In this document: positions 7,942 to 52,203 of the stretch, piece by piece
Layout: each line of letters begins with the position of its first letter
Numbering within the stretch: position 1 is the first letter of the stretch
NCBI RefSeq assembly: GCF_014174215.1
Contig: NZ_JABEQL010000006.1
Span: 124,001-188,000 of the forward strand
Reading direction: 5' to 3'
DNA length: 64,000 bases
Origin: Gluconacetobacter tumulicola
GTDB lineage: Bacteria; Pseudomonadota; Alphaproteobacteria; Acetobacterales; Acetobacteraceae
The notes under the pieces: model-generated
What the model was told of the DNA's origin: nothing
Seen by the model: the letters and a program-made list of their open reading frames with translations, nothing else
Database searches by the model: none
Translations under genes and position numbers: made by a program

Positions 7942-8433
7942 ATGGAGACGGACAGGATCGAAAAGACGGTCATGCTGAAGGCGGCGCACGACCGTGTATG
8001 GCGCGCGATCACGGATTCCACCCGTTTCGGCCAGTGGTTTGGCGTGGAGGTCGACGGCCCCTTTATCGCGGGGCAGGAGGCGATCGGGCGGATCGTTCCC
8101 ACCCAGGTCGACCCGGATGTCGCCCGCATGCAGGAACCGTATCGCGGTACCCCCTGGCGTGTTCACGTCGAGCGGATCGAGCCTATGCGGCTGTTTTCGT
8201 TCTGTTGGCATCCATATGCCATCGATCCGGCCCATGATTATGCCGCCGAGCCGATGACGCTGGTTACGTTTGCACTGGCGGAGGTGGAGGAGGGCATCCG
8301 GCTTACCATTACGGAGACGGGTTTCGACCGGTTGCCGTCTGCCCGGCGAGCGGAGGCGATCAAGGCGAATGATGGTGGCTGGGCGCATCAGGCCAGGTTG
8401 GTGGAGAGATATCTCGCCCTGGGAGACGAATGA
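7942..8433 (+). CDS. SRPBCC (AHSA1-like) domain protein
   Basis: 163 residues from the ATG at 7942, with GGAGG seven bases before it. The pattern is that of activator-of-Hsp90 ATPase homologues: an N-terminal strand with VMLKAAHDRVWRAITDSTRFGQWFG, a central W-R-V-x-V-E-R-I-E-P region, and a C-terminal helix (HQARLVERYLAL). Such proteins form a helix-grip pocket for hydrophobic ligands; the specific role is unknown. An ArsR regulator lies 69 bases downstream, a common pairing for this family. Confidence 0.82.
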   Translation: METDRIEKTVMLKAAHDRVWRAITDSTRFGQWFGVEVDGPFIAGQEAIGRIVPTQVDPDVARMQEPYRGTPWRVHVERIEPMRLFSFCWHPYAIDPAHDYAAEPMTLVTFALAEVEEGIRLTITETGFDRLPSARRAEAIKANDGGWAHQARLVERYLALGDE

Positions 8434-8502
8434 CACTCTGTTTGAAAAACAGGCTTGCCCGCCAAGGGTGTTCTTACGAATGACCCCAAAGAAAGCGCGC
8501 TG

Positions 8503-8856
8503 ATGGAAAGCGGATATTGTTCGGACAATCTGCAATCCGCGGTGCCGGTTTTTGCGGCTCTGGGCGATCCGGTCCGTCTGTCGATTGTCGCACGGCTGAG
8601 CGAAAACGGGCCGCTGCCCACCGTCCAGTTGACGGACGGCACGGGGGGGATCACGCGTCAGGGCATCAACAGGCATCTGCGCGTGCTGGAAGATGCCGGG
8701 CTGGTGGAAAGCGCGCGGGTTGGCCGGGTTCGGCAATGGCAGTTACGGGCGCAACAGATCGCGATCATCCGCGAGCATCTCGACCGGCTGTCGGCAGTGT
8801 GGGATGCCCGTATCGAAGGGCTTCGGGCGTTCGTCGAGGACGGCGACGAGCGATAG
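8503..8856 (+). CDS. ArsR family transcriptional regulator
   Basis: 117 residues from the ATG at 8503; a TTG at 8455 would extend the frame by 16 residues but lacks family-like sequence. The winged helix-turn-helix is plain: VFAALGDPVRLSIVARLSENGPL, then GITRQGINRHLRVLEDAGLVES and a basic wing GRVRQW. No typical metal-binding CxC motif is present in the recognition helix, so it probably responds to something other than arsenite. It is likely to control the SRPBCC gene directly upstream, the usual partner in such pairs. Confidence 0.85.
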   Translation: MESGYCSDNLQSAVPVFAALGDPVRLSIVARLSENGPLPTVQLTDGTGGITRQGINRHLRVLEDAGLVESARVGRVRQWQLRAQQIAIIREHLDRLSAVWDARIEGLRAFVEDGDER

Positions 8857-8928
8857 GGGGTATTCCTTCTCTTCGGAACCGCGTGACCGCCAGGCAATGA
8901 GGCTGTCGGTCACGATCTTGCCGCAGTT

Positions 8929-8956
8929 CGCAATATTGCCAGAGGTAAATATTGCG
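8929..8956. promoter_or_regulatory. 9-bp inverted repeat, possible LysR-type operator
   Basis: CGCAATATT and its exact reverse complement AATATTGCG are separated by ten bases. AT-rich dyads of this spacing in front of a LysR gene often serve as the regulator's own site; the regulator at 9102 begins 145 bases downstream. The assignment is inference. Confidence 0.4.
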
Positions 8957-9101
8957 ATGATGCATCTTGTGGCGGCGCGTCTGAGTTTTCTTCCTCAATG
9001 TTCCTGAGGACGGATTGCAGCGGATCGCATCGAAGAGGCCGTGATGCTGGCCCTGTCCCGGTCATGCCGTTATCTTCGACAGGAATTCACAGATCGGAGC
9101 G

Positions 9102-10016
9102 ATGATGGATAACCGGGCGGGAGAGATGCTGGTCTTTGTCCGGGTCGCGGAGTCCGGTAGCTTCTCCGAAGCGGCGCGGCAGCTTCTGATGACGCCATCG
9201 ACGGTCAGCAAGCTGATCGCGCGCATGGAAGATCGCCTTGGCGTGCGGTTGGTCGAGCGGTCGACGCGGCGGCTGTCATTGACCGACGAAGGGCGTCTTT
9301 TCCATGAGCGGAGCGGTGCCCTGCTGGCGGAACTGGACGATATCGAGCGCGAGGTCGGTCAGGGCGGCAAGGGGGCCGGTGGCACGATCCGCGTCAATGC
9401 GTCGGTGGCATTCGGTGTGCTGGGAATCGAGCCGCTGTTGCCTGCGTTCTGGGAAACCTACCCGAACATGGTGGTCGATCTGTCGCTGTCGGACGAGATT
9501 GTCGATCTTTATCTTGATCGTGCCGATATCGCGTTCCGCGTGGGTCCGCTCGCGGACAGCAGTCTGCTTGCGCGCAGGATCGGGGTCGCACGCCGGAAGA
9601 TCGTCGCCGCCCCGGCCTATCTTGAACGCCATGGCACACCGCTCATGATCGGAGATCTCGACCGGCATAACTGCCTTGGGTTCAATTTCCGGCGTGCGGC
9701 CCCGATCTGGCCGCTGAAGGATGGCGGACGGATCGTCGATCGGATGGTGGGTGGAAACCTGCTGGCCAATAATGGCGAAACCGTCAGGCGGCTGGCGCTG
9801 GCGGGAATGGGGCTGGCCCGTCTGGGCGATTACCATGTGCGGGAGGATATCCGCCACGGCCGGCTGATCGAAGTGCTGGGCCAGGCCGGCCATGGCGACG
9901 AGGAAGAGGTCCATGCGCTCTATCCGGGCGGCCAGCGCATGCCGCAGCGCATTCGGCTGTTCCTGGATTTCATGATTCCGCGTCTGCAGATCTTCATGCG
10001 GAACGACCCTGCGTGA
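9102..10016 (+). CDS. LysR family transcriptional regulator
   Basis: 304 residues. The helix-turn-helix (SFSEAARQLLMTPSTVSKLIARMEDRLG, residues about 19-47) and the following RLVERSTRRLSLTDEG are typical of the DsdC/YafC-like LysR branch. The effector domain shows NASVAFGVLGIEPLLPAFWE. The start could be the ATG at 9102 or the next one at 9105. It is convergent with the MdaB-like quinone reductase gene (25 bases between stops). LysR regulators of this branch often control nearby oxidoreductases, but the target is not visible. Confidence 0.9.
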   Translation: MMDNRAGEMLVFVRVAESGSFSEAARQLLMTPSTVSKLIARMEDRLGVRLVERSTRRLSLTDEGRLFHERSGALLAELDDIEREVGQGGKGAGGTIRVNASVAFGVLGIEPLLPAFWETYPNMVVDLSLSDEIVDLYLDRADIAFRVGPLADSSLLARRIGVARRKIVAAPAYLERHGTPLMIGDLDRHNCLGFNFRRAAPIWPLKDGGRIVDRMVGGNLLANNGETVRRLALAGMGLARLGDYHVREDIRHGRLIEVLGQAGHGDEEEVHALYPGGQRMPQRIRLFLDFMIPRLQIFMRNDPA

Positions 10017-10041
10017 AACGCGGGGCCGCCCGTCCGAGCGC

Positions 10042-10635
10042 TCAGGCCTCGCCGAACGCCAGGGTTTCCGCAAGATGCCGACGATAGCGGTGGGTGGTCG
10101 TGTCGATTGCGGGGGCCTTCATGACGTCCGAGGCCAGGAAGGTCGGGAGGGGCGACATGGCGAGGAATTGATTGGCCTTGTGGAAAGGAAAATAGACGGC
10201 ATCGACGCCCCTGCCTTCGAAGAACTGCGCGGAGTCGAGGAAGGCCTCCTCCGGCGCATTCCAGGTCAGGGAGAGCATGTAATGCTTGCCATGCAGCAGG
10301 CCGCCTGAGCCGTATTTGCGTTCCGGATGCGCCCGGCTGCGGCCATCGTTTGCGTAAAGCGCGCCATGGCCGGCGGTGAAGACCTCATCCATGTATTTCT
10401 TGACGATCCATGGCGCGCCCATCCACCAGCCCGGCATCTGATAGATGACCAGATCGGCCCACAGGAAATTCCGGACTTCCTCCTGGATGTCGTAGCCGGA
10501 ATCGATTTTCGTCTGGCGGATGGCGAAGCCGGCGTTCGACAGGGCCTCGACCGCTACCGCATGGAGCGTATCGTTCAGGCGGCCGTGCGAATGTGCGAAA
10601 ACCTTCCCGCCGTTCAGAAGGAGGATGTTTTTCAT
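10042..10635 (-). CDS. NAD(P)H-dependent quinone reductase, MdaB-like flavodoxin fold
   Basis: 197 residues. The N-terminal strand MKNILLLNGGK, the region DLVIYQMPGWWMGAPWIVKKYMDEVF and the segment GLLHGKHYMLSLTWNAPEEAF match MdaB (modulator of drug activity B), an FAD-dependent two-electron quinone reductase that protects against quinone and oxidative stress. AGGA lies before the ATG. It follows an SRPBCC gene on the same strand by 70 bases. A closely related KefF-type reductase would be the alternative, but the W-W-M-G-A-P block favours MdaB. Confidence 0.88.
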   Translation of the reverse strand: MKNILLLNGGKVFAHSHGRLNDTLHAVAVEALSNAGFAIRQTKIDSGYDIQEEVRNFLWADLVIYQMPGWWMGAPWIVKKYMDEVFTAGHGALYANDGRSRAHPERKYGSGGLLHGKHYMLSLTWNAPEEAFLDSAQFFEGRGVDAVYFPFHKANQFLAMSPLPTFLASDVMKAPAIDTTTHRYRRHLAETLAFGEA

Positions 10636-10705
10636 GCTCGGTTATCCTGTCGGTGATTTCAGCAGCGGATGATCGTGAGGAGTGGACTGGAGGATGCCGC
10701 GACGG

Positions 10706-11125
10706 TCAGGGCATGCCTTCCAGCAGCTTCTTTGCGTGTGCGAGTGCCGTCGTATAGGTGGCGTGATATCGTGCGGCCGCGTCTGCTTCACTCAGGCCCA
10801 CAGGCACGAAGCGGCTACCCCAGCTTATGATGCAGCGGTCGGGACCATGTTCGGCGACGGCGACCTGGCCGACATAGTGTTCGACCGGGTCTGGCCCGCT
10901 GATATAGGCGTAGGAATAGACGCGCTCGCGGTCATCGAAGCGGAGCAGGCGTTCCACGATGGTTATGTCTTCTGCAACGGTCAGGCGCCGGACGCGCCCG
11001 CCCTCTTCCAGCGTGCTGGTCCGGATCATCGGTATCCACAGCGGAAGGCTGTCAAAGCCGCCGAGCAGGGCCCAGGCTGTGTCGGCGCTGACCGCGACGT
11101 CCATCTGGCTGACGATTTCGACCAT
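10706..11125 (-). CDS. SRPBCC family (polyketide cyclase/START-like) protein
   Basis: 139 residues from the ATG at 11125, which has a GAGAGAGG ribosome site; an upstream in-frame ATG at 11230 adds 35 residues without family-like sequence. The start VEIVSQMDVAVSADTAWALLGGFDSLPLWIP is the classical beginning of the polyketide-cyclase-2 group: a helix-grip fold binding a small hydrophobic ligand. Later blocks (GGRVRRLTV, YSYAYISGPDPVEHYVG, CIISWGSRF) complete the domain. It is upstream of the MdaB-like gene in the same direction, perhaps one transcription unit. The ligand is unknown. Confidence 0.82.
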   Translation of the reverse strand: MVEIVSQMDVAVSADTAWALLGGFDSLPLWIPMIRTSTLEEGGRVRRLTVAEDITIVERLLRFDDRERVYSYAYISGPDPVEHYVGQVAVAEHGPDRCIISWGSRFVPVGLSEADAAARYHATYTTALAHAKKLLEGMP

Positions 11126-11365
11126 GCACCTCTCTCCCCTGTTCCGCCGGATGGGCACCGCACATAAACGGCTCCCGGTTTCCTGCACGTACAGGGCGCC
11201 TTCGGGCGGGGCTATGGCCTCTGCCGTCACAACGCTTGTGAACGAAATTCAGGAATGGCTCGCAGGATAGGTCTCGGGCGCCGAGCGTCAGCCCGTCCTC
11301 GTCCTTGATCTTGTCATCCAGCGTCTTCCTGTTGAGCGCCTTATCAAGTATCCGGCGCGGCAGGT

Positions 11366-13366
11366 TCAGTGCGGTCGCCTGAGGAACAGCAGCATTTCGC
11401 GCAGATGGTCGCCGGCAGCCGATGGGGCGGACAGCAGGTCTGAAAAATGCCGCAGGGCCGTCTGGTAGGTCTGTGCGGTCGGGGCTGGAGTGTGGTCCGT
11501 CGTGCGTTCGAGCCAGCTTGTGCTGGCGATGCCGGCCTGCTGGCGCAGGTGGAAGAGGATCTCCATGCAGATCTTCAGGTTTTCCGAACGGCGGAGGCCT
11601 TCGAGGCTGGTCTGCTGGCAGAGGATCTCGGCTCTGTTGGACGTGGTTCCGGCCGCGCGGCGCGCCTGCTCGGTTTCATCGCGGGTGCCGTTGCCGGTGG
11701 TGGCAAGCGCGGCATAGCGGAGATTGGCCAGGAAGGCGCGGCTGACCAGGGTGGGGAGCGAGGCCGTGGATTTTTCCGGCCACAGCAGAAGACAGGCGGC
11801 CATGCCGACCAGGCTGCCGATGATGTTGTTTTCGGCGCGGGCAAAGCCGAGCCACCAGCCGGTGTCGGAGCCGACGAGGTCGGTGACCAGGATGAAAAGC
11901 TGGGTCATGAAGGTCACGCACAGCGTGTAGTTGACGCTGCGCAGCGCGATGGTGGTGGCCGATAACGGGAAGACAAGGAGCAGAACCAGCCATTTCGGAC
12001 ACAGCGTGCCTGCGATGGCGGCGAGGATGCCGCCGGCGACGCTGCCGGCGACGCGCTCGATGGTGCGGGAGAGGGTGGTGCTCCTGCCCGGTTGGGTGAC
12101 GACGACGACGGCCATCATCGCCCAGTAGGCATAGGGCAGGTGGAAGGCGAGCGTCATGCCGAAGGCGGCCAGAACCGCCACGGACAGGCGTGCGGCGTGA
12201 CGGATGAAGATCGGGCTGAGTGGCTGCGACGGCGTGGCAAGGGCGGATGGCGCGGTGCCGTGCAGGGACTGGTCCTTGCCCAGCCAGGCGGTCTGCAGGT
12301 CGGTCAGGGCAGCGGCATTCCAGGCGGCGGCGCGAGTTGACAGGGTTTGAGGGTGGGTGCCGAGGCGGCCGAGCGCGCGGATATAGGGGCCGATGCTGCC
12401 CGGGGCATGGCGGCCGGGCGGGATGTCCCGCGCGATGCGGCGGAGGGCGGCGGCGGTGATGCGGATGACACGGGTGGTCTGGGGTGGCAGCGGGGCGGAG
12501 AACGCCGCATGTTCGAAGGCGATGAGGGCGACGAAGATGCGGTCGGCGGCCTCGACGGCGGGCAGAAGAGTGGCGCGGGCCGGACTGAGTGGCGCATCAC
12601 TGGAGAGTTTTTCGACCGACGAGCGGGCCTGTTCGATGCGGTGGCGGATGTCGCGGCGCCAGGCGCTGAGTTCCTTCTGCTGGGTGAGAAGGCTGGCTGC
12701 CTGAAGGTGCGGGAGGTTGAGCAGTCGGAAGGCCATACTGGCCTGTTCGCGAAACAGGGCGGCGCAGGCCTGTTTCTGCGGGGTGCTGGGGTCGACGGGC
12801 CAGGCCAGCAGGCAGATGAGCATGGCCCACAGGACACCGAGGGAGAACAGGGCGGCGAGGGTGACGGCCCCCGTCGGGGTCTGGGGATAACAGATGGCGA
12901 CCACGGCGACGATGGCAGCGAGGACGCTGACCTGGGTGGCGGCCGCCCCTCGGGCGCGGGCAAGCCCGCACAGGAAAACGCACAGACCCAGGCCGACGAA
13001 GGCGGCGGCGGTGCTGTATCCCGCCAGGGCGGATATGGTGCCGGTGATGAACGCGCCGGCCAGGCCGAAGGATGTCAGGGCCCTGATCCTGCGGTGGAGA
13101 AGGCCGCCGGGGTCTGCGAGGCAAGTCCAGAAGGCGGCGAAGGCGGACCAGGCCATGAGGGGCATGTCGAGATGCCGGGCGACCAGCATGACGGTGCTGA
13201 CGGCGACGCCGGCCCGTAGGCCCTCGCGGATGGCGATCTGTTCCGGCGCGATGGCAATGGCGCGCGCGCCCAGCCAGTGCGTGACGATAGAGGGCGTCAG
13301 GCTGTGGGCGAGCGCCTTCAGAAAGCGTGGCTTGCGGGGAAGAGGGGGAAAGAGACTGTTTTTCAT
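11366..13366 (-). CDS. FUSC family protein (aromatic acid exporter-like)
   Basis: 666 residues from the ATG at 13366; a longer frame to 13444 would run into the terminator upstream. The protein has two clusters of hydrophobic helices (residues about 45-200 and 385-520), each followed by a soluble helical region, the usual plan of FUSC/AaeB exporters of fusaric acid and aromatic acids. The second block begins with RLSVAVLAAFGMTLAFHLPYAYWAMMAVVVVTQPGRSTTL, a conserved stretch. A full efflux system would need a membrane-fusion partner, which is absent here. A terminator separates it from the operon upstream, so it has its own promoter. Confidence 0.85.
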   Translation of the reverse strand: MKNSLFPPLPRKPRFLKALAHSLTPSIVTHWLGARAIAIAPEQIAIREGLRAGVAVSTVMLVARHLDMPLMAWSAFAAFWTCLADPGGLLHRRIRALTSFGLAGAFITGTISALAGYSTAAAFVGLGLCVFLCGLARARGAAATQVSVLAAIVAVVAICYPQTPTGAVTLAALFSLGVLWAMLICLLAWPVDPSTPQKQACAALFREQASMAFRLLNLPHLQAASLLTQQKELSAWRRDIRHRIEQARSSVEKLSSDAPLSPARATLLPAVEAADRIFVALIAFEHAAFSAPLPPQTTRVIRITAAALRRIARDIPPGRHAPGSIGPYIRALGRLGTHPQTLSTRAAAWNAAALTDLQTAWLGKDQSLHGTAPSALATPSQPLSPIFIRHAARLSVAVLAAFGMTLAFHLPYAYWAMMAVVVVTQPGRSTTLSRTIERVAGSVAGGILAAIAGTLCPKWLVLLLVFPLSATTIALRSVNYTLCVTFMTQLFILVTDLVGSDTGWWLGFARAENNIIGSLVGMAACLLLWPEKSTASLPTLVSRAFLANLRYAALATTGNGTRDETEQARRAAGTTSNRAEILCQQTSLEGLRRSENLKICMEILFHLRQQAGIASTSWLERTTDHTPAPTAQTYQTALRHFSDLLSAPSAAGDHLREMLLFLRRPH

Positions 13367-13411
13367 GGGCCGGCGCAGGAAGCAGGCCACGGAATATATA
13401 AAAGAATCCAC

Positions 13412-13442
13412 AAAAAAGGGAGGGGCCGTTCCGGACCCTCCC
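13412..13442 (-). terminator. Intrinsic terminator of the TonB-receptor/aldolase operon
   Basis: On the minus strand GGGAGGG and CCCTCCC flank a short loop and are followed by six T. It sits 38 bases beyond the aldolase stop and upstream of the FUSC gene, separating the two units. Confidence 0.8.
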
Positions 13443-13480
13443 ATGTCGAATGATGGTGCGCTGGTCGAGGGAGCAGGCCC

Positions 13481-14242
13481 CTAGCGGATATAATCAGGCT
13501 GTTCACGATCCAGCTTGCGGCGCAGGGCGCGCCAGACCAGTTGACCCTGGTCCGGATCGTTCTCGAACTGCGCGCGGGTGCGCAGCAATTTGTCTTCGGA
13601 AGGCAGGTGCAGGGGCGCGCCGGTCGATTGCGCTGCGATCTGGATGCGGCAGGCCTGTTCCAGATAATAAGTGCGATAGAATGCCTGGGCGACGCTCTGG
13701 CCGACCGTCAGCAGGCCGTGATTCTGCAGGATCAGGCCGATATTGTCGCCCAGATCACGGACCAGCCGCTCGCGTTCGCTCAGATTGTCATCCGCCGCGA
13801 TGCCTTCATAGGCATGGAAGCCGACGCGGCCGTGGAATTCGACATTGATCTGGTTGAGCGGCAGGATTCCATGCTGCTGCGCGGCCACGGTCATGCCTGC
13901 CAGCGTGTGGGTGTGCATGACGCAGGCGGCGTCGGGGCGGCTGCGGTGGACGGCGGAATGGATCACGAAGCCGGCGGGGTTTACCGGCCAGCTCGTCGCC
14001 TGTTTCGGCAGGCCTTCGGCATCCACCACGACCAGCGAACTGGCCGTGATCTCTTCGAACAGCAATCCGTAAGGGTTGACCAGGAAGGTATGGCCGGGAC
14101 CGGGCAGGCGCACCGAGAGATGGGTGTAGACCAGGTCCGTCATGTCGAACAGCGCGAGCAACCGGTAGGCGGCTGCCAGGTCCTCGCGCAGCGACTGTTC
14201 GTCCTGTTCAGTCTGCGGGGCGGTGAATGCGTCCGTCGTCAT
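13481..14242 (-). CDS. Class II aldolase/adducin family protein
   Basis: 253 residues from the ATG at 14242. The class II aldolase fold with its metal histidines is visible: MHTHT (His110, His112) and QNHGLLTVG (His175), plus the N-terminal region [12 protein letters not shown] and [13 protein letters not shown]. Members cleave or epimerise sugar phosphates and related hydroxy acids with Zn2+ or Mn2+; which substrate this one takes is unknown. The start overlaps the oxygenase stop (ATGA), so translation is coupled. It is the last gene of the receptor/epimerase/oxygenase operon. The N-terminus resembles that of the oxygenase upstream (both begin MTTDA). Confidence 0.9.
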
Positions 14243-15291
14243 GCGTGCTGCGCCTTCTGTTTGAAATGCCCGAATGTGGCGGTGCCGCGTGCGCCGGACG
14301 GCAGCGCCAGTTCGCCACGTTCGACCTTGCGGACCAGATATTGGTAGGTCTGCAGGGCCTGCGACCACATGTGATCGCCGATCTTGATGGCCTCGTATGC
14401 CTCGCCGCCCTTGTCGAAGGCCGGCAGGGGGCGGATCTGGGTATGGTAGTCGCAGGCATAGAATAATGGGAAGGAATAGCGTTCTTCCTTCACGCTGCGC
14501 ACACGGTGCGCCGTGGCGACGAACGTGCCCGCCGTCATGACTTCCAGCATGTCGCCGATATTGACCACGAATGCGCCGGGGATGGGCGGCGCGTCGATCC
14601 ACTCCCCATTGCCGTTCATGACTTCCAGGCCCGGCTGGTCGGCCAGCAGGATGGTGAAACATTCATAATCGGTATGGGCGCCGATGCCCGGCGCGTCCTG
14701 CGCCGCGCCGTCATGAGGATAATGGATCATCCGCAGTTTGGAAGGCGGGAATTGTGCCATGTCATCGAAGGCGTTTTCCGGCAGGCCGAGTGCCAGCGCG
14801 AAGCCCTGGAACAGCAGGCGCCCGAGGGCGAACACAGCGCGGTAATAGGCCTCGGCCCGTTCGCGGAACAACGGCAGGCCCGGCCAGTTGTTGGGGCCCA
14901 GCAGCGGCGTGCCGGACAGCACCAGCGGGTTGTCGGCTGGAACCTCGAACCCGATATCGAACGCTTCCTTATGGTCCGGCCGGTCCTTGTTGTAGACCTC
15001 CTCACCCTCCGGCACGAAGCCCTTATGGGTCGCGGAGGTGCCGATATAATAGTCCATCTTGCGGTCCAGCGGCAGGGCGAAGAAATCCTTCGCCGCCGCG
15101 CGCACGCCGTCGATCAGGTCCTGGGGTACACGGTGGCCGGAGATGTAGAGGAAGCCAACATTGCGGGCGGCATCGCCCAGCCTGTCCGCCACTTTCTGCC
15201 TGTCGGCGGGATTGGCGGAATACAGGCCGGAAATATCGACGACCGGAATCGCGGAGAAGGTTTCCCGCCGGGTGAGTGCGTCTGTCGTCAT
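14239..15291 (-). CDS. Isopenicillin N synthase-like 2-oxoglutarate/Fe(II) oxygenase
   Basis: 350 residues. The N-terminal DIOX_N region reads [17 protein letters not shown] and [11 protein letters not shown]. The catalytic jelly roll has the iron ligands His206 and Asp208 (GAHTDYE) and His262 (ATAHRV), and Arg271 in RYSFPLF for the 2-oxoglutarate carboxylate. All catalytic residues are present, so an active hydroxylase or oxidase is expected; the substrate cannot be told. It lies one base after the epimerase-like gene and overlaps the aldolase by 4 bases in a tight operon under a TonB receptor. Confidence 0.92.
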
Positions 15292-15292
15292 G

Positions 15293-16162
15293 TCAGATGT
15301 CTCCTGAGGCCAGGCTGTTCTGGCACTGCTGGAATGCGTCGAAATGCCGGCGTTCGGTGTCCGCGATCCATCGGTTCAGATCCCACAGATCGGCGACCGG
15401 CGCGTTGGTGAAAGGCAAGGTGTGCAGGTAGCCGTCCGGGCCGCATTCCGGTGTCAGCGTCGTGACGGCATAGCCGCGCCGTGCCTGTGCGGCCCATACC
15501 TGTGCCCAGACATGCTGATGGAAGGCGAGGGCCGCCGCGTATTCCGGCGCGGCGGGATGCGGCACCTGCGGGCCCTGATCGTAGCCGACCCGGGCCTGGA
15601 GATGATGGACACGTGCGATGAAGGCGCTGAAATCGTCCAGCGGATCGTCCAGCAGCCGCTCGCAGGTGACGATCCAGTGGCTGATATCCAGCGTGAACAG
15701 TGCGTCGGGACACTGGTTCAGCACATCCAGCGCGATCCAGGGGGAGGAGAGGATGCGCGAGCGGTGTGTTTCGAACACGCAGCGCAACCCCGCCTGGCAC
15801 CCGATCTCGTTTGCCTGGTTGATGAAATCCGCCTGCTGGGTGACGCTCCAGCGGTCGTTGCCGCCCAGCACGTTGACGAAGCGGGGCTGCATGATGGCAG
15901 CGCGCTCCAACGCGTGGCGGAGGTCGGCCAGATGGTCGGCCAGGGTGGCGCCCTGGCGGGGAATGACGCCGCCGCCGGTCAGGGCGATGGCGATATAAGG
16001 CACGCCCTCCTGGCGCAGAAGGCGGCCCTTGTCGGCTGCATCCTGCGCGTTGTCGGGGATGCGCGCCTCGATCCCGTCGAAGGCGGCGGCGCGCATCTCC
16101 GCGATGACGGGCGCCCAGGGGCGGGTGTCGCCCCACAGGGTCTTGAAGAGGTCGAGGCGCAT
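15293..16162 (-). CDS. Sugar phosphate isomerase/epimerase-like TIM-barrel protein
   Basis: 289 residues. The xylose-isomerase-like barrel is suggested by an N-terminal LFKTLWGD, then [23 protein letters not shown], a [11 protein letters not shown] strand, [10 protein letters not shown] and a late [15 protein letters not shown], where E, D, H and E residues sit at strand ends as metal ligands. The family isomerises or epimerises sugars and inositol derivatives. It comes 22 bases after the TonB receptor and one base before the oxygenase. Together with the aldolase it suggests stepwise breakdown of a polyol-like or sugar-like compound. Confidence 0.82.
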
Positions 16163-16184
16163 GGCGGCCGCCTTACCCTTGGGC

Positions 16185-18452
16185 CTAGAAATTATAGCGC
16201 AGGTCGCAGCCGACCCAGCGAGGCGTCTGGAGATACTGCACGCGGCTATTGTCGCTGCCGGTGAAGGAATAGGTATTGCCGTGCTGGTTCAGCATGTTGT
16301 CGACATAGACAGCGGCCGTCCATTTGCCGGTCTTGGGCCCGACTTCCATCCGCAGGCCCATCGAGCTGATCTTGTTGGTCTTGCCGTTCGGGTCGCCCAG
16401 CGCCACCTGCATGTTGTCCTTCCACGTGTAGCTGGCCTGCAGGGTCACGCGATAGCGCGGTGTCACGTCGATGCCGTAGCGCGCGACCGCGCTCCACGAG
16501 AAACGCGGCGCGAAGGGCAGGGCGGAGTGGGAATCCACATTACCCAGCAGCGGCAGGCCGCCGATCGAGCTGACCGAACTGACGGTCTGTGCGTCGAGAT
16601 AGGCGAAGGACCCGCGCAGGTCCAGGTTGGGCAGCAGGTCATGCAGCGTGCTGGACAGTTCGCCGCCGCGCGTCCTTGCCCGGGGAATGAGGCCGAGGCT
16701 GAGCGAGGTGATGTCGCGCGGCATCTCGGCCACGAACAGGGTCTGGCGGTTGTGGTATTCGTAGTCGAACAGCGAACCTTCGATCTGCACCTTGTTGTTG
16801 AACAGGCTGGTCTTGGCGCCGATTTCGTAGGCGATCAGGTTTTCGGGGTGGACATAGTCCAGGGCCTGGGGGGCGGTGACAGGCGCCGCGAAATAGGCGC
16901 CCGCCTTGTAGCCGTTGGAGATCGTGCCATAGACCAGTGTGCCGGGCAGGATCGTATAGCGCAGGCCGACGCGGCCGGTCAGGCGCTCATATTCATGGTT
17001 CTGGTTGACGTAGGACAGGTGCGAACCCGCCGTGCCGGTCACGGCGCCAGTATTGTCCAGCGTGCCGCCATCGAAGCCGCGTTCGTCATAGGACAGGCGG
17101 CCGGCGGCGATGAAATCCAGCCCCTTGATGATATGCGTGACGGTGTTGATGTAGAGGCCGGTCGACAGGTTCTGCTGGACGAAATGATCGGTCAGGCTGG
17201 CGTGCGGCGAATCCAGGATGAAGGAACGGTAGCTGGTATAGGCGCCGTTGATCTTGTCCCAGGATTCATAGACGCCGACCGTCAGGTTCAGGCGCTTGGC
17301 CAGGTTCATGTTCAGATGCATGTCGTGCGACTGGGCGATGGTCGTGTCGTTCCAGCGATAGTCGCCGACATTGACCGATTCGCCATCGTAATTGTCATAA
17401 TCGTCGCGACGGTAGAAATCGATACCGGTGGCCGAGGTGAAGGTGCCGAAATCGAAGTTCCTGGTGTAGTTGATGCCGATGCCGCCGCCGTTTTCGTTGC
17501 GCGAGGCGCGGTTGTCGCCGACATTCACCGCATTGTATTTCGCATTCTGGCCGACGCTGATCGTGCGGTCCGGCAGGCCATTTACCGCGTCGCCATCCAC
17601 ATCCTGCGGCGAGACCGGGGTGCCCTTGTCGCGCGTGTAGTGGATGTTCAGCATCAGCGATGACTGGTCGTCGATGACGAACTGGGTCAGGTTGCGCAGC
17701 GACAGGATATCCTGCGCGCCGTAGCGCCGGCCGGTATGGATATCGTGCTGCCAGCCGTCGCCGTTGATGTAGCTGAAGGCGAAGCGGTTGAAGATGCGGT
17801 CGGTGATCGGCGTATTGATGGCGCCGCGTGCCGTGTTGGTGCCGTAGCTGCTGTAGCCCCAGTTCAGGTAGCCGCCGAAATGGCCCGTCGGCTTGATGGA
17901 TTCGATGTTCATGCTGCCGCCGGTCGTGCTGCGGCCATATTCGAAGCCCTGCGGGCCTTTCTCGACACTGACTGTCTGCACGTCGAACATCTGGCCGTTA
18001 TACAGCACTGGATAGGGTGCGAAGACGCCGTCGATATAGATCCCGATCCCGCCCATGTTGGTGCCGATATAGTCGTCCAGCCCGATGCCTCGGATCGAGA
18101 AGATCGGCGTGCTGCCCGAGGTGGCGTTGACGGCGGTCACGCCGGGGATGAAGGCCGCGATCTCCTTGGGGCTGACGATGTGCAGCGACTGGAGTTCCTT
18201 GCCGCTGAGCGTGTTGACCGTGTTGGCCATCGTATGGAACCGCGCCGTCCGCGCGCTGGTGACGGTGATGGCTTCCAGCGTCGGGCGCTGGGGGGCGCGG
18301 GCGTGACGGGTGGCGTGCGCCGGCGGGGACGTGGTCGGCGCGGCGTGTGCTGCGATACTGCTGACCCCAGCCAGAAGCAGCGCCGAGAACAGGACATGCC
18401 GGTTCCTCTGTGCGATGGCGTTGCGACACGGGGAACTGGAGCGTGCTGTCAT
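16185..18452 (-). CDS. TonB-dependent outer-membrane receptor
   Basis: 755 residues from the ATG at 18452. A signal peptide (basic start, then VLFSALLLAGVSSIAAHA) is followed by a TonB-box-like stretch LEAITVTSART, a plug domain (PKEIAAFIPGVTAVN, FSIRGIG, IYIDGVF, VEKGPQGFEYGRSTTGGSMNI) and a 22-strand barrel rich in aromatic residues that ends in Phe (DLRYNF), as outer-membrane barrels do. It imports a substrate with proton-motive energy passed on by TonB. As the first gene of the operon it defines what the following enzymes act on. The plug and barrel resemble receptors for complex organic ligands more than classical ferric siderophore receptors, but that is a weak judgement. Confidence 0.92.
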   Translation of the reverse strand: MTARSSSPCRNAIAQRNRHVLFSALLLAGVSSIAAHAAPTTSPPAHATRHARAPQRPTLEAITVTSARTARFHTMANTVNTLSGKELQSLHIVSPKEIAAFIPGVTAVNATSGSTPIFSIRGIGLDDYIGTNMGGIGIYIDGVFAPYPVLYNGQMFDVQTVSVEKGPQGFEYGRSTTGGSMNIESIKPTGHFGGYLNWGYSSYGTNTARGAINTPITDRIFNRFAFSYINGDGWQHDIHTGRRYGAQDILSLRNLTQFVIDDQSSLMLNIHYTRDKGTPVSPQDVDGDAVNGLPDRTISVGQNAKYNAVNVGDNRASRNENGGGIGINYTRNFDFGTFTSATGIDFYRRDDYDNYDGESVNVGDYRWNDTTIAQSHDMHLNMNLAKRLNLTVGVYESWDKINGAYTSYRSFILDSPHASLTDHFVQQNLSTGLYINTVTHIIKGLDFIAAGRLSYDERGFDGGTLDNTGAVTGTAGSHLSYVNQNHEYERLTGRVGLRYTILPGTLVYGTISNGYKAGAYFAAPVTAPQALDYVHPENLIAYEIGAKTSLFNNKVQIEGSLFDYEYHNRQTLFVAEMPRDITSLSLGLIPRARTRGGELSSTLHDLLPNLDLRGSFAYLDAQTVSSVSSIGGLPLLGNVDSHSALPFAPRFSWSAVARYGIDVTPRYRVTLQASYTWKDNMQVALGDPNGKTNKISSMGLRMEVGPKTGKWTAAVYVDNMLNQHGNTYSFTGSDNSRVQYLQTPRWVGCDLRYNF

Positions 18453-18610: not shown

Positions 18611-19369
18611 TCAGTGGCGGATCATCTGCGCGAGGAAAGTCCGGGCCCTTTCGGTGCGTGGCGCGGTGAAGAATTCCTCGGGTGGCGTGACCTCCAGCAC
18701 CGCGCCCCGGTCCATGAAGACGATGCGGTCGGCAATATGGCGGGCGAATCCCATTTCATGGGTCACGCAGACGGTCGTGATTCCCTGATCGGCCAGGTCG
18801 CGCATGATGCCGACGATTCCGGAGATGGATTCCGGATCGAGGGCGGCCGTGGGTTCATCGAACAGGATGATCTCGGGATTCATGCACAGGGCGCGGGCAA
18901 TGGCGACGCGCTGCTGCTGGCCGCCCGAAAGCTGGATCGGGAATTTTTCGGCCTGTTCGGCGATATTGACCTGCGACAAATAGCGGCGGGCCGTGGCTTC
19001 GGCATCGGATTTCGTGATGCCGCGTACCAGGCGCGGTGCCAGCGTGCAATTATCCAGGACGCTGAGATGGGGGAACAGATTGTAGTTCTGGAATACCATG
19101 CCGACCGAGCCGCGCAGCGCCGTAAGGTCCGTACGGTCGTCGATGACGTGGCCGTCGATCATCAGGACGCCGCTATCATGCGGCTCGATACGGTTGAGGC
19201 AGCGGATGAAGGTCGATTTGCCCGACCCTGACGGTCCGAGCACTACGATTTTCTCGCCCTTGCTGATGTCGAGATCGATCCGGTCGAGTGCCAGGTAATC
19301 CTTGTAGAATTTGCTCAGGCCACGGATCGAGATGCGCGCGGTCGGATCGGGGGAAGTGCTAAGCTGCAT
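18611..19369 (-). CDS. Polar amino acid ABC transporter ATP-binding protein
   Basis: 252 residues from the ATG at 19369. Walker A (GPSGSGKST), the Q-loop (FQNYNLFPH), the signature LSGGQQQR and Walker B ([11 protein letters not shown]) are intact, followed by the switch His (VTHEMGFA). The sequence is that of the GlnQ/HisP group, which powers uptake of polar amino acids. Its first 11 bases overlap the end of the fused binding-protein/permease gene, so the two form one transporter. Confidence 0.95.
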
Positions 19370-21005
19370 CGGCGGATGCCTTGTTGCGGTCGGCCCAGAT
19401 GAAGCGGCGCTCGATCCGCTTCTGCAGGAACAGGAAGAAGAAGACCATCGCCAGGTAATAGACCAGGGCGGCGGCATAATATTCGGTGAACTGGAATGTG
19501 CGGGCCACCTGGATCTGGGTAACGGCCAGAAGCTCCTGCAACGAGATGACCGAGGCGAGCGATGTCGTCTTCAGCAGGCTGATGAATTCGTTGATGGTGG
19601 GGGGCAGGGCGATGCGCAGCGCCTGTGGAAAGATGACATGGCGGTAGGTCTGCGCCGTCGTCATGCCCAGAGCGTCGGCGGCCAGGACCTGGCCCGGATC
19701 GACGGCGCGCAGGGCGGCACGGTTGATCTCCACCTGATAGGCGGATTCATTGATCGAGAGGGAGAGCCATGTCGCCAGGAACGGCGTGAACCAGTGCTCG
19801 CGGAAGATGGGAAAGAATTGCGGCAGGGCGTTCCAGATGAACAGCAACTGAAGCAGCGTCGGTGCGCCCCGGAACACGGCGACATAAAGCCCGAGCAGCC
19901 GCCTGATGATTGAATCCCGGCCATTCAGCTTCATCGCCATCGGGATCGAGATGGCGATGGCCGTCAGGTGCGACAGGAGGGCGATGACCAGCGTCAGTGC
20001 GGCGCCCTTGAGAAAGGCTGTGGAGAACAGGGCGCCGAAGAAGGTGGCGAAATCGAAGCGTGACGGGGCATTCCGTTCGGTGAAGACGCTTTGATGGTCG
20101 CCGGAAATGCCCCATTTCTTTGCCATGGCGGCGATTTCGCCCTTTTGGGACAGTTCGTCGATCGCCTTCTGCAGCAGGGCGCTATCACGTGAATCCTTGC
20201 GGATATAGACCGCGAACTGATGAAAGTCGGGATAATCGGGCGTCAGGATGATCGTGACTTTTCCGCCCAACTGCTTCTGCCGGTAATAGAGTTCGACATC
20301 CTGGCTGATGAACGCATGGACCCGCCCGATCAGGACCTGCTGCACAACCTGATCTTCGGTCGGGTATTGCTGCAGGATGATCGGTGGCCGCCCGGAGGCG
20401 CGGAGGCGATCATTCTCGCGTTCGATCTGCGCGGCGTAGCTGGTGCCGGACTGCACCGCGACGGTCTGTCCGGACAGATCCGCCATTTCGCGGATTTTCG
20501 GTGTGCCCACGCGGGCGACCGCCACCACGGTGGAATCCAGATAGGCGACTGCGTCATAATTTCGCAGCCGTCCCGCCTGCCGCAGCACGCCGCTGATGAC
20601 CATGCCGCAGCGCTGGGCGGAGAGGCTGGGAAACAGCCCCTCGAAATCCATCGTCTGGGGGATGAGCGCGACATGCCAGTAGGCTGCCAGGCGGCGGGCG
20701 AGGTCGATATCCATCCCAGCCAGGGCATTGGTGTCGGACCCGTTGACGAAGGTCATCGGCGGCAGGGTAGGGTTGGTGCAGAGCGTCAACTGGCCGTCAT
20801 GTACGAAGCTGGGGAGATCATCGGCCAGCGCGCGCGCGGCCGGCAGGAGGACGGCCAGGGCGAGCAGGGCTGCCGCGAGCATGCGGCGCCATGGACCGGC
20901 GCGGCGCAGGGAGCGATCGGAAGGGGCCAGGGACCGATATCCGGAAAAAGCGAGGGTAGACGGGCAGGAGCTCGGCAAGCGGGTCCATCCTTGGTGGGGC
21001 GGCAT
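19359..21005 (-). CDS. Amino acid ABC transporter, fused substrate-binding and permease protein
   Basis: 548 residues as given from 21005; the start is uncertain. The ATG at 20882 would give a signal peptide without basic residues, so a longer start with the RRAGPWRRM region is preferred. A hydrophobic export segment (LAAALLALAVLLPAARALA) precedes a periplasmic binding domain (QLTLCTNPTLPPMTFVN, AGMDIDLARRLAAYW, residues about 65-290). A HisM/GlnP-type permease with five or so helices (residues about 310-540) follows, with the EAA-like loop ALGMTTAQTYRHVIFPQALRIALP. In most systems these are two proteins. The neighbouring arginine-deiminase-like gene hints at a guanidino or basic amino acid as substrate. 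Confidence 0.88.
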   Translation of the reverse strand: MPPHQGWTRLPSSCPSTLAFSGYRSLAPSDRSLRRAGPWRRMLAAALLALAVLLPAARALADDLPSFVHDGQLTLCTNPTLPPMTFVNGSDTNALAGMDIDLARRLAAYWHVALIPQTMDFEGLFPSLSAQRCGMVISGVLRQAGRLRNYDAVAYLDSTVVAVARVGTPKIREMADLSGQTVAVQSGTSYAAQIERENDRLRASGRPPIILQQYPTEDQVVQQVLIGRVHAFISQDVELYYRQKQLGGKVTIILTPDYPDFHQFAVYIRKDSRDSALLQKAIDELSQKGEIAAMAKKWGISGDHQSVFTERNAPSRFDFATFFGALFSTAFLKGAALTLVIALLSHLTAIAISIPMAMKLNGRDSIIRRLLGLYVAVFRGAPTLLQLLFIWNALPQFFPIFREHWFTPFLATWLSLSINESAYQVEINRAALRAVDPGQVLAADALGMTTAQTYRHVIFPQALRIALPPTINEFISLLKTTSLASVISLQELLAVTQIQVARTFQFTEYYAAALVYYLAMVFFFLFLQKRIERRFIWADRNKASADAA

Positions 21006-21125
21006 GACGCGGAACGGCGACCGGAATCATAGGCGGAATGTTCCGGCTGGCGCCAGCCGGATCGGAACCTTATACACCATTTCGGTTGGTTGTTGATTTA
21101 CCAAAACCCAAAGAGAACTCCACGA

Positions 21126-21154
21126 GATTTAAATCGAGCACTCTGGAGTGCTCG
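21126..21154. promoter_or_regulatory. Two adjacent palindromes in the divergent promoter region
   Basis: GATTTAAATC (21126-21135) is a perfect 10-bp palindrome, directly followed by CGAGCACTC-TG-GAGTGCTCG (21135-21154), a perfect 9-bp inverted repeat. They sit between the divergent ABC transporter and hydrolase genes, 65 bases before the latter. A shared operator for both is likely but not proven; no regulator gene is adjacent. Confidence 0.55.
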
Positions 21155-21218
21155 GCCTAGGCTGGATGGAGAATAGGATTGGACTCGCATTATCGTCGAG
21201 CGGAAGGAGTATGGGTAC

Positions 21219-22091
21219 ATGACGTCGAACCGGTGGTTCATCGACAGTGAAACCGGCGAATTGTCGGATGTTCTTTTGTGCCCACCCGATAATTACAGCT
21301 GGATACCCAGCAATGACATCGCGATCCAGACCATGGCGAAGGGTGTGCGGATCGACAGGAGTGCCTTGGCTGCGCAGTTCCGCGAATTGGTTTCGGCCCT
21401 GGAAGGGGCGGGCGCGGCCTGCCATTTCCTGCAGCCGCGCGCGGGGATGCCTTATCAGGTCTATACGCGTGACAGCTCGCAGACCACGCCGTGGGGCACC
21501 GTCGTAACCCGGCTGATGCGCCCCGAGCGTACGGCGGAAGAGGGGGAAATCCGCACATTCTACCAGCCCGACGATATCTGGAAGAGCGCTACCAAGGGCC
21601 ATATCGAGGGGGGGGATATCCATATCATCCGCCCGGGCCTGGTTGCCGTGGGCGTGACGGGTGGCCGCACGGACGAAGCGGGGGCGCGCGAGTTCCTGGG
21701 GTGGTTCGAAGAGGCCGGGTGGGCGACGAGGATGATCCGCTTCCCGGAACATTTCCTGCATCTGGACGTTATTTTTACGATGGTGACGGAAAATCTGGCC
21801 ATTGCCGCCGTGGACGTGCTGGATGATGAAGATCTCGACTGGTTCCGCGCGCAGGGTATCCGGCTGCTGCCGGTCAGCTACAAGGAAGCGATGCGGGACA
21901 TGGGCTGCAACGTGCTGGCGCTGGGTCGCGACCGGGTAGTCAGCCCGCGCCATTCAATGCGGATCAACGAGATGCTGCGGGCCGAGGGGCTGACCGTGAT
22001 CGACCCCGAACTGAACCAGTTCTCGCAGGGGGGGGGCAGCATCCACTGCATGACGATGCCGCTGCGCCGCGCTTCACTCGTCACCGGCTGA
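21219..22091 (+). CDS. Arginine deiminase/DDAH-family amidinohydrolase
   Basis: 290 residues. The guanidino-modifying fold is recognised by its catalytic set: Asp85 (YTRDS), Glu130 and Asp133 (GHIEGGD), His181 and Asp183 (LHLDVIFT), and Cys277 in the final GGGSIHCMTMPLRR. Such enzymes hydrolyse arginine, methylated arginines or related guanidino compounds to citrulline-type products. The length is near that of DDAH and shorter than classical arginine deiminase (about 400), so plain arginine is not certain. It is divergent from an amino acid ABC transporter, which probably imports its substrate. Confidence 0.87.
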   Translation: MTSNRWFIDSETGELSDVLLCPPDNYSWIPSNDIAIQTMAKGVRIDRSALAAQFRELVSALEGAGAACHFLQPRAGMPYQVYTRDSSQTTPWGTVVTRLMRPERTAEEGEIRTFYQPDDIWKSATKGHIEGGDIHIIRPGLVAVGVTGGRTDEAGAREFLGWFEEAGWATRMIRFPEHFLHLDVIFTMVTENLAIAAVDVLDDEDLDWFRAQGIRLLPVSYKEAMRDMGCNVLALGRDRVVSPRHSMRINEMLRAEGLTVIDPELNQFSQGGGSIHCMTMPLRRASLVTG

Positions 22092-51923: not shown

Positions 51924-52049
51924 GGGGGGCGCCTCCTTGTCATATTCTGTCCGGTCGCCAAGGGTAGGGGGCGGAGGGCTGTCGATCCAGCCCCGATGGC
52001 GGTGCGGGGATGATTGACTTGATTGCGGAACATATGCGAAGCATCGGGT

Positions 52050-52203
52050 GCTGACGCGGGAGAGACTGGCGAGAGCCGGCGCCGAAGGAGCAACCGCCCC
52101 GGAAACTCTCAGGCCAAAGGACCGCCCGGCTTCGACTTCTGGAGAGAGGCGCCTCGAGCGTCCGCCGACGGGATAGCGATCTCAGGCAAACCGACAGAAG
52201 GGG
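52050..52203 (+). promoter_or_regulatory. Glycine riboswitch, probably tandem aptamers
   Basis: The first aptamer (about 52050-52133) has GCGGGAGAGACTGGC, GCCGAAGGAGCAACCGCCCC and GGAAACTCTCAGGC. A second (about 52134-52203) has TCTGGAGAGAGGCGCC, CCGACGGG and ATCTCAGGCAAACCGACAGA. These are the conserved cores of glycine riboswitches, and the tandem form is common before gcv genes. It should raise gcvT-gcvH-gcvP expression when glycine is plentiful. Confidence 0.92.

Follow-up and report, generated by a model that had tools for sequence, protein, structure and literature searches.

We analysed a stretch of 64,000 nucleotides from Gluconacetobacter tumulicola (contig NZ_JABEQL010000006.1, positions 124,001 to 188,000 of the forward strand), which we call the window and to whose own numbering all coordinates refer unless another locus is named; the host assembly comprises 4.29 Mb. 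A preliminary description of this DNA, made from the letters and their open reading frames, had picked out four packed genes between 13481 and 18452: those for a TonB-dependent receptor (TBDR), an epimerase-like protein (EPI), a 2-oxoglutarate oxygenase (OX) and a class II aldolase-family protein (ALD). We found that these four genes are part of a seven-gene unit, together with two genes of an ATP-binding cassette (ABC) importer and a divergent gene for a deiminase-like protein (ADI). The best-supported statement about the unit is that it serves the catabolism of guanidino compounds. Its features are as follows.

21219..22091, plus strand: ADI, divergent arginine-deiminase/DDAH-like guanidino hydrolase (290 aa; Pfam ADI, DDAH_eukar)
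21006..21218, no strand: intergenic region of 213 bases between the divergent units, by its position the likely promoter region
19359..21005, minus strand: binding protein-permease fusion of a polar amino acid ABC importer (Pfam SBP_bac_3 and BPD_transp_1; the start may be 20882)
18611..19477, minus strand: importer ABC ATPase (Pfam ABC_tran; likely start 19369, inside the 3' end of the fusion gene)
16185..18452, minus strand: TBDR, TonB-dependent outer membrane receptor (Pfam Plug and TonB_dep_Rec_b-barrel)
15293..16162, minus strand: EPI, xylose-isomerase-like TIM-barrel enzyme (Pfam AP_endonuc_2)
14239..15291, minus strand: OX, Fe(II)/2-oxoglutarate oxygenase, IPNS-like (Pfam DIOX_N and 2OG-FeII_Oxy)
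13481..14242, minus strand: ALD, class II aldolase/adducin-family protein, an aldolase or decarboxylase (Pfam Aldolase_II; NCBIfam PRK07044)
13423..13438, minus strand: terminator-like hairpin with T-run 3' of ALD, starting 42 bases past the last stop

The coordinates and spacing first given for the four genes were all re-found, with 22 bases between TBDR and EPI, 1 base between EPI and OX, and a 4-base ATGA overlap of OX with ALD. The amino acid transporter that had been called divergent is not: the importer block (21005-18611) lies on the same strand as TBDR, 158 bases 5' of it, and the divergent gene is ADI, which had gone unmentioned. A scan of 21006..21218 with a sigma-70 pattern found no promoter-like site. 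As for the terminator proposed behind ALD, a hairpin with a T-run is indeed present at 13438-13423, but the pattern scan gave no excess of such sites in the region (5 vs 4.6 expected in shuffles), so that only its position and the T-run speak for the call.

EPI matched Pfam AP_endonuc_2 with 41.4 bits (cut-off 31.1), and its predicted structure (predicted local distance difference test score, pLDDT, 89.9) has a TIM-barrel fold. Glu131, Asp159, His187 and Glu239 are invariant in an alignment of 37 rows, and we take them to be the Glu-Asp-His-Glu metal site of xylose-isomerase-like barrels; six tryptophans of EPI (W10, W105, W142, W163, W219 and W223) are invariant too. Profile, predicted fold and metal residues all fit, and EPI is on these grounds a predicted xylose-isomerase-like TIM barrel of the AP_endonuc_2 type. 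No NCBIfam model matched it at E 0.001. The fold did not single out a reaction: ketose epimerases, IolE, UlaE, AsbF, Art22, DgpB/C and a 3-keto-glucoside lyase were tied, and none was chosen. Relatives of EPI are currently annotated as 'sugar phosphate isomerase/epimerase' or 'xylose isomerase', names that a guanidino role would correct. In OX, the catalytic residues reported as kept (His206, Asp208, His262 and Arg271) are invariant in a 29-row alignment, and the two Pfam domains together with these His-x-Asp, His and Arg ligands identify the protein, as far as sequence can tell, as an IPNS-like Fe(II)/2-oxoglutarate oxygenase; its predicted structure is only moderate (pLDDT 75.7). The top match of OX among solved structures is titled 'ancestral ethylene forming enzyme', and OX shares 40% identity with Anc357, 34% with PaIPNS and 23% with the ethylene-forming enzyme (EFE). 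We dropped the reading of OX as an EFE because Anc357 and PaIPNS form only trace ethylene and no detectable 1-pyrroline-5-carboxylate (P5C) from arginine (PMC12329707), and for that reason likeness to EFE was not counted toward arginine chemistry. These nearest solved relatives of OX also differ from EFE at L-arginine-site residues (PMC12329707).

ALD matched Pfam Aldolase_II with 161 bits and the NCBIfam subfamily PRK07044 with 334 bits (cut-off 207); against the fucA model, ALD (P0001) reached 31.6 bits (cut-off 400). The claim that all aldolase catalytic residues are kept was not confirmed. The three histidines that it names (His110, His112 and His175 in the original numbering, 116, 118 and 181 in P0001) are presumably just the metal ligands of L-fuculose-phosphate-type class II aldolases; they are invariant in 17 rows. 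Where L-fuculose-phosphate aldolase has Glu73, presumably its catalytic Glu, all 17 rows have Gly97, a position that was counted rather than aligned directly to FucA. Nor need ALD be the enzyme of a final retro-aldol cleavage: both aldolases and the decarboxylase NovR are among its solved-structure matches. The host genome holds an ALD paralogue (77% identity) in a second unit, L205 (G000 contig 26, 17000-36000), at ∼8361-14392, with a GhrA-like dehydrogenase, a class III aminotransferase and a gene that resembles a TonB receptor by eye; this unit may be part of the same pathway.

ADI scored 90.6 bits with Pfam ADI (cut-off 22.8) and 62.7 bits with DDAH_eukar. E130-G-G-D133, His181 and Cys277, which we assume to be the active site of the arginine deiminase/DDAH superfamily, are invariant in nine rows, and the profile and these conserved residues mark ADI as a predicted member of that superfamily; it matched both DDAH and arginine deiminase models of NCBIfam, all below the equivalog cut-offs. 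By its Pfam and NCBIfam profile matches, the importer belongs to the polar amino acid type, and the best NCBIfam models for its ATPase are GlnQ/ArtP, under their cut-offs. One Arg and one Thr of the binding protein are common to two transporter types and would be weakly compatible with an amino acid ligand. TBDR resembled heme and catecholate siderophore models weakly, with scores far under cut-off.

Among 249 genomes of Acetobacteraceae, EPI was present in 11 (host included), in one of them at just 29% identity. The gene-set search that had been recommended found the complete seven-gene set grouped in each of nine further Acetobacteraceae regions (9 of 9) whose EPI has at least 62% identity; the region with the 29% match (L026) contains none of the other specific genes of the unit. 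A contig scan yielded 477 EPI relatives, of which the best 80 were kept: 36 loci from Acetobacteraceae (host included) and 44 from gammaproteobacteria, the latter being Pseudomonas/Klebsiella-type relatives. Neighbours were counted from similarity tables with identity thresholds that we set, over up to 10 kb per side, some stretches being ended by the contig; G691 (short contig, internal stop), L015 (EPI in two pieces) and L016 were left out. OX is present in 36/36 Acetobacteraceae and 43/44 gammaproteobacterial loci, and in 76 of the 80 it follows EPI immediately and in the same orientation (three have ∼2 kb between the genes and one has no OX). An amino-acid-type ABC transporter accompanies the pair in 33/36 and 44/44 loci, respectively, ALD in 30/36 and 15/44, and a TBDR-like receptor in 30/36 and 0/44. 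Judged by these counts, EPI, OX and the amino-acid-type importer are the core of the unit, and TBDR and ALD are additions; apart from its OX partner, EPI is the most constant member. Since the gene order recurs across many genomes, it is more than chance. The left-out relative in L015 (2692-3509, Klebsiella pneumoniae plasmid NZ_MN823990.1) has 36% identity to EPI and a GhrA gene ∼4 kb off. L013 (CP125156.1) is a 5.4-Mb record labelled as a Klebsiella plasmid but, given its size, probably chromosomal, and its EPI gene is not in the distributed gene table.

The neighbours of EPI and OX differ between the two groups of relatives. In Acetobacteraceae, the ADI gene is linked in 28/36 loci, and in 16/36 a carbamoyl-hydrolase gene stands beside it. 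A homologue of this hydrolase (64% identity) is encoded in the host genome away from the unit, amid genes for dihydropyrimidinase and the dihydropyrimidine dehydrogenase PreA (both pass the NCBIfam cut-offs), a neighbourhood suggesting that the carbamoyl hydrolase is of the beta-ureidopropionase type. In gammaproteobacteria, a guanidinobutyrase gene is found near EPI/OX in 24/44 loci and a gene for 5-guanidino-2-oxopentanoate (2-ketoarginine) decarboxylase also in 24/44, so that 26 loci have one or both. The guanidinobutyrase representative scored 676 bits over the full length of the solved guanidinobutyrase 3nio, and the decarboxylase representative 858 bits to 5-guanidino-2-oxopentanoate decarboxylase (cut-off 500). 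Thus, two unrelated routes that strip the guanidino group occur beside the same EPI/OX pair, and this is our main argument for a guanidino substrate class.

We also compared 20 distant loci (L014, L124-L127, L137-L144 and L153-L159), 13 of which have an EPI with 33-52% identity to that of the window, while 7 were reached with a distant EPI as query (44-56% identity to the query). In 19 of the 20, an oxygenase gene is found no more than 2 kb from EPI: OX in 5, and a protein of the FA_desaturase family, a membrane di-iron family, in 14 (called by Pfam in four of the 14 and by similarity to those in the rest). The twentieth locus, L156, is a 4-kb contig and was counted as 'no oxygenase seen'. In a 37-row tree of EPI, the best tree has two changes of oxygenase partner, and the well-supported branches force one. 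Guanidine riboswitches are present in 7/20 distant loci, and in three of them the start of the desaturase-like gene is preceded, at 8-16 bases, by a guanidine-II element (L153 10396-11456, L155 2710-3774, L157 10421-11456). Such a gene is not what a guanidine switch usually controls. In L153, EPI lies behind the desaturase-like gene in the same orientation, and the genes compared in that locus (3.5-17 kb) gave no guanidine carboxylase match. L014, L140, L144, L154 and L157 carry genes for guanidine carboxylase, or for the two proteins associated with it, at most ∼6 kb away from EPI. In a sample of 293 genomes from one order (match defined as E 1e-200 or better), a guanidine carboxylase match was found in 15/16 genomes with EPI vs 69/277 without it (Fisher p 3e-8), and when partial matches were excluded, in 11/16 vs 66/277 (p 3e-4), both p-values being calculated as if the genomes were unrelated.

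Several other gene families were seen near EPI in the distant loci. Creatininase-family genes (L157 12870-13622, L158 11566-12336, L159 6020-6802) could point to a cyclic guanidino compound. Relatives of type III glutamine synthetase (L126 14966-16351, L141 3617-4999, L144 7114-8475, L157 11465-12916, L158 12386-13747), of which those in L126 and L144 pass the TIGR03105 cut-off and the others were assigned by similarity, possibly glutamylate an amine product. A lactonase-like gene of the metallo-beta-lactamase fold (called by Pfam in two of the five loci, by similarity in the others) is found at L014 9238-10020, L140 8698-9495, L154 11275-12060, L155 3797-4579 and L158 8802-9584. In L143 (7466-10347), the genes immediately preceding EPI encode S-(hydroxymethyl)glutathione dehydrogenase and S-formylglutathione hydrolase, each scoring above its cut-off. 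In the window itself, a glycine riboswitch aptamer lies at 52047-52134.

The first description as an uptake-and-degradation unit with an intact-looking oxygenase is supported by these results. The plant- or sugar-acid-derived substrate that went with it is not, as the informative neighbours in relatives are guanidino/arginine enzymes or guanidine riboswitches. Comparison across genomes supports both a guanidino substrate class and the partnership of OX with EPI, and the substrates are most likely guanidino compounds rather than sugar acids; we infer which guanidino acid is used, in what order the steps run and what EPI and ALD catalyse. We see an even chance that the unit imports an arginine-type guanidino acid and degrades it oxidatively by a route through OX, EPI, ALD and the deiminase. 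The guanidino acid would cross the outer membrane via TBDR and the inner membrane via the polar-amino-acid ABC importer, and OX would hydroxylate it using 2-oxoglutarate, Fe(II) and O2. EPI, as a TIM-barrel metalloenzyme, would take the hydroxylated product and either isomerise its new hydroxy-carbonyl group or split it, if unstable. ALD could then shorten the carbon chain by a small fragment, through metal-dependent cleavage of a C-C bond or through decarboxylation. ADI would convert the guanidino to a ureido group, and the beta-ureidopropionase-type hydrolase encoded elsewhere in the host genome would finish the conversion of the ureido acid to an amino acid; these two enzymes would stand in for the guanidinobutyrase of the gammaproteobacterial version. 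More tentatively, and with less than even odds, EPI may found a new family of enzymes, lyases or isomerases, for oxygenated guanidino compounds, whose partner in evolution has been one or the other of two unrelated oxygenases, a soluble 2-oxoglutarate enzyme or a desaturase-family membrane protein. Such pairs would make up an oxidative branch of guanidine and guanidino-acid metabolism that is widespread yet undescribed, and they would be one natural origin of the guanidine to which riboswitches respond.

A number of observations weigh against the arginine-type route. A gap of 158 bases separates the importer genes from TBDR, across which a single transcript can at most be presumed, and 29 of the 44 gammaproteobacterial loci have no ALD. 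Within the stretch compared, no gene for a deiminase, guanidinobutyrase or 2-ketoarginine decarboxylase was found in 8/36 Acetobacteraceae and 18/44 gammaproteobacterial loci. A scan for guanidine riboswitches found none in the window and none in 8 closer loci, and the host genome has no guanidine-I riboswitch (the sole class searched genome-wide), no guanidine carboxylase and no arginase-family ureohydrolase. The p-values for co-occurrence with guanidine carboxylase ignore genome relatedness. Finally, the nearest solved relatives of OX have no known substrate and form no P5C from arginine (PMC12329707).

Could the guanidino group be released early instead? OX might hydroxylate the carbon adjoining the guanidino nitrogen (e.g. 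C5 of arginine or C4 of 4-guanidinobutyrate), and EPI might act as a lyase on this hemiaminal, giving guanidine and a semialdehyde in the way that MgdL acts on N-(hydroxymethyl)guanidine, with desaturase-family proteins doing likewise on other guanidines. There is a precedent in MgdH/MgdL (PMC12508155). Guanidine carboxylase genes or guanidine riboswitches lie near EPI in 7/20 distant loci, such context is also found beside an OX-type pair in Paraburkholderia sprentiae, and guanidine-II elements stand immediately 5' of the desaturase-like gene. The distant relatives favour release of guanidine by EPI. The host, however, has neither guanidine carboxylase nor ureohydrolase nor a guanidine-I riboswitch, and early release of the guanidino group would make the guanidinobutyrase and the deiminase superfluous; the missing carboxylase and ureohydrolase, together with the guanidinobutyrase of the Pseudomonas clusters, favour a guanidino group that is kept. 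We regard early release as unlikely, though far from negligible.

The remaining alternatives carry less weight. If methylarginines or other methylated guanidino compounds were demethylated by the unit, OX would hydroxylate the N-methyl group, EPI would free formaldehyde, and the DDAH-like gene and ALD would do the rest. ADI does match DDAH models in addition to arginine deiminase (all below NCBIfam cut-offs), and the two glutathione-dependent formaldehyde genes lie immediately before EPI in L143, but among 110 loci compared they adjoin EPI in that one only, and a Rieske-type oxygenase gene in L143, recognised by eye, could account for them; we consider this route improbable. The sugar-acid or plant-compound route originally put forward would have EPI as isomerase, OX as hydroxylase and ALD as retro-aldolase. 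Several unrelated families of guanidino/arginine enzymes recur beside EPI/OX and the seven genes include no sugar kinase or sugar transporter, which makes this route very unlikely. TonB receptors often serve metal chelates, and TBDR has its weak, far sub-threshold matches to heme and catecholate siderophore models, so that the receptor might import a metal chelate whose chelator the enzymes degrade to free the metal. Yet TBDR is missing from all 44 gammaproteobacterial loci, which retain EPI and the importer, and that importer is of the amino acid type; metal scavenging is scarcely credible here.

In agreement with the preliminary description, no pathway with this gene set was found in searches of open-access literature, nor any description of the EPI/OX pair, most subscription papers lying outside that scope. 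Catabolism of guanidine and arginine is already known, whereas the EPI-oxygenase branch and its swap of partners appear to be new. The unit offers a testable oxygenase/TIM-barrel pair that is present in acetic acid bacteria, pseudomonads and enterobacteria, and in distant relatives the EPI/oxygenase pair is tied to guanidine-riboswitch loci. Guanidine is sensed by four riboswitch classes (PMC12508155), and a 2025 review names the origin of free guanidine and of unusual guanidino compounds as an open question (PMC12186494).

Among described proteins, the EFE/IPNS-like oxygenases (Anc357, PaIPNS, EFE) have their fold and iron ligands in common with OX. The OtnI/OtnC acid-sugar pathway presumably combines a xylose-isomerase-like barrel with a class II aldolase-superfamily protein, as in EPI and ALD, but the OtnK/OtnC/OtnI pathway has a kinase, whereas the seven genes of the window have none and an oxygenase instead, and ALD is absent from 29 of the 44 gammaproteobacterial loci. 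The genes of the Pseudomonas arginine 2-oxo-acid/4-guanidinobutyrate pathway cluster with EPI, OX and the importer in gammaproteobacterial relatives, although 2-ketoarginine decarboxylase and guanidinobutyrase are not in the window and the host genome has no ureohydrolase; to our knowledge, neither EPI nor OX catalyses a step of it. Guanidine carboxylase loci were also searched for OX relatives: none was found by tblastn in 30 such loci (of 84 genomes with a match; 1.5 kb per side where the contig allowed), and an oxygenase motif scan flagged one of the 30 (L189), which had no other sign of an oxygenase. A close functional parallel is methylguanidine demethylation by MgdH/MgdL of Vreelandella boliviensis (PMC12508155). 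MgdH was active only on methyl- and dimethylguanidine among the compounds tested, and MgdL is described as holding its substrate inside a beta-barrel with catalytic Asp49 and Arg51, a description that sets it apart from the TIM barrel EPI. MgdH/MgdL sit in guanidine operons with riboswitches; unlike these operons, the unit of the window has no guanidine carboxylase or guanidine riboswitch, while the distant EPI loci share both carboxylase genes and riboswitches with them. Common to MgdH/MgdL and the unit is a two-step logic, in which a 2-oxoglutarate oxygenase is followed by a dedicated second enzyme.

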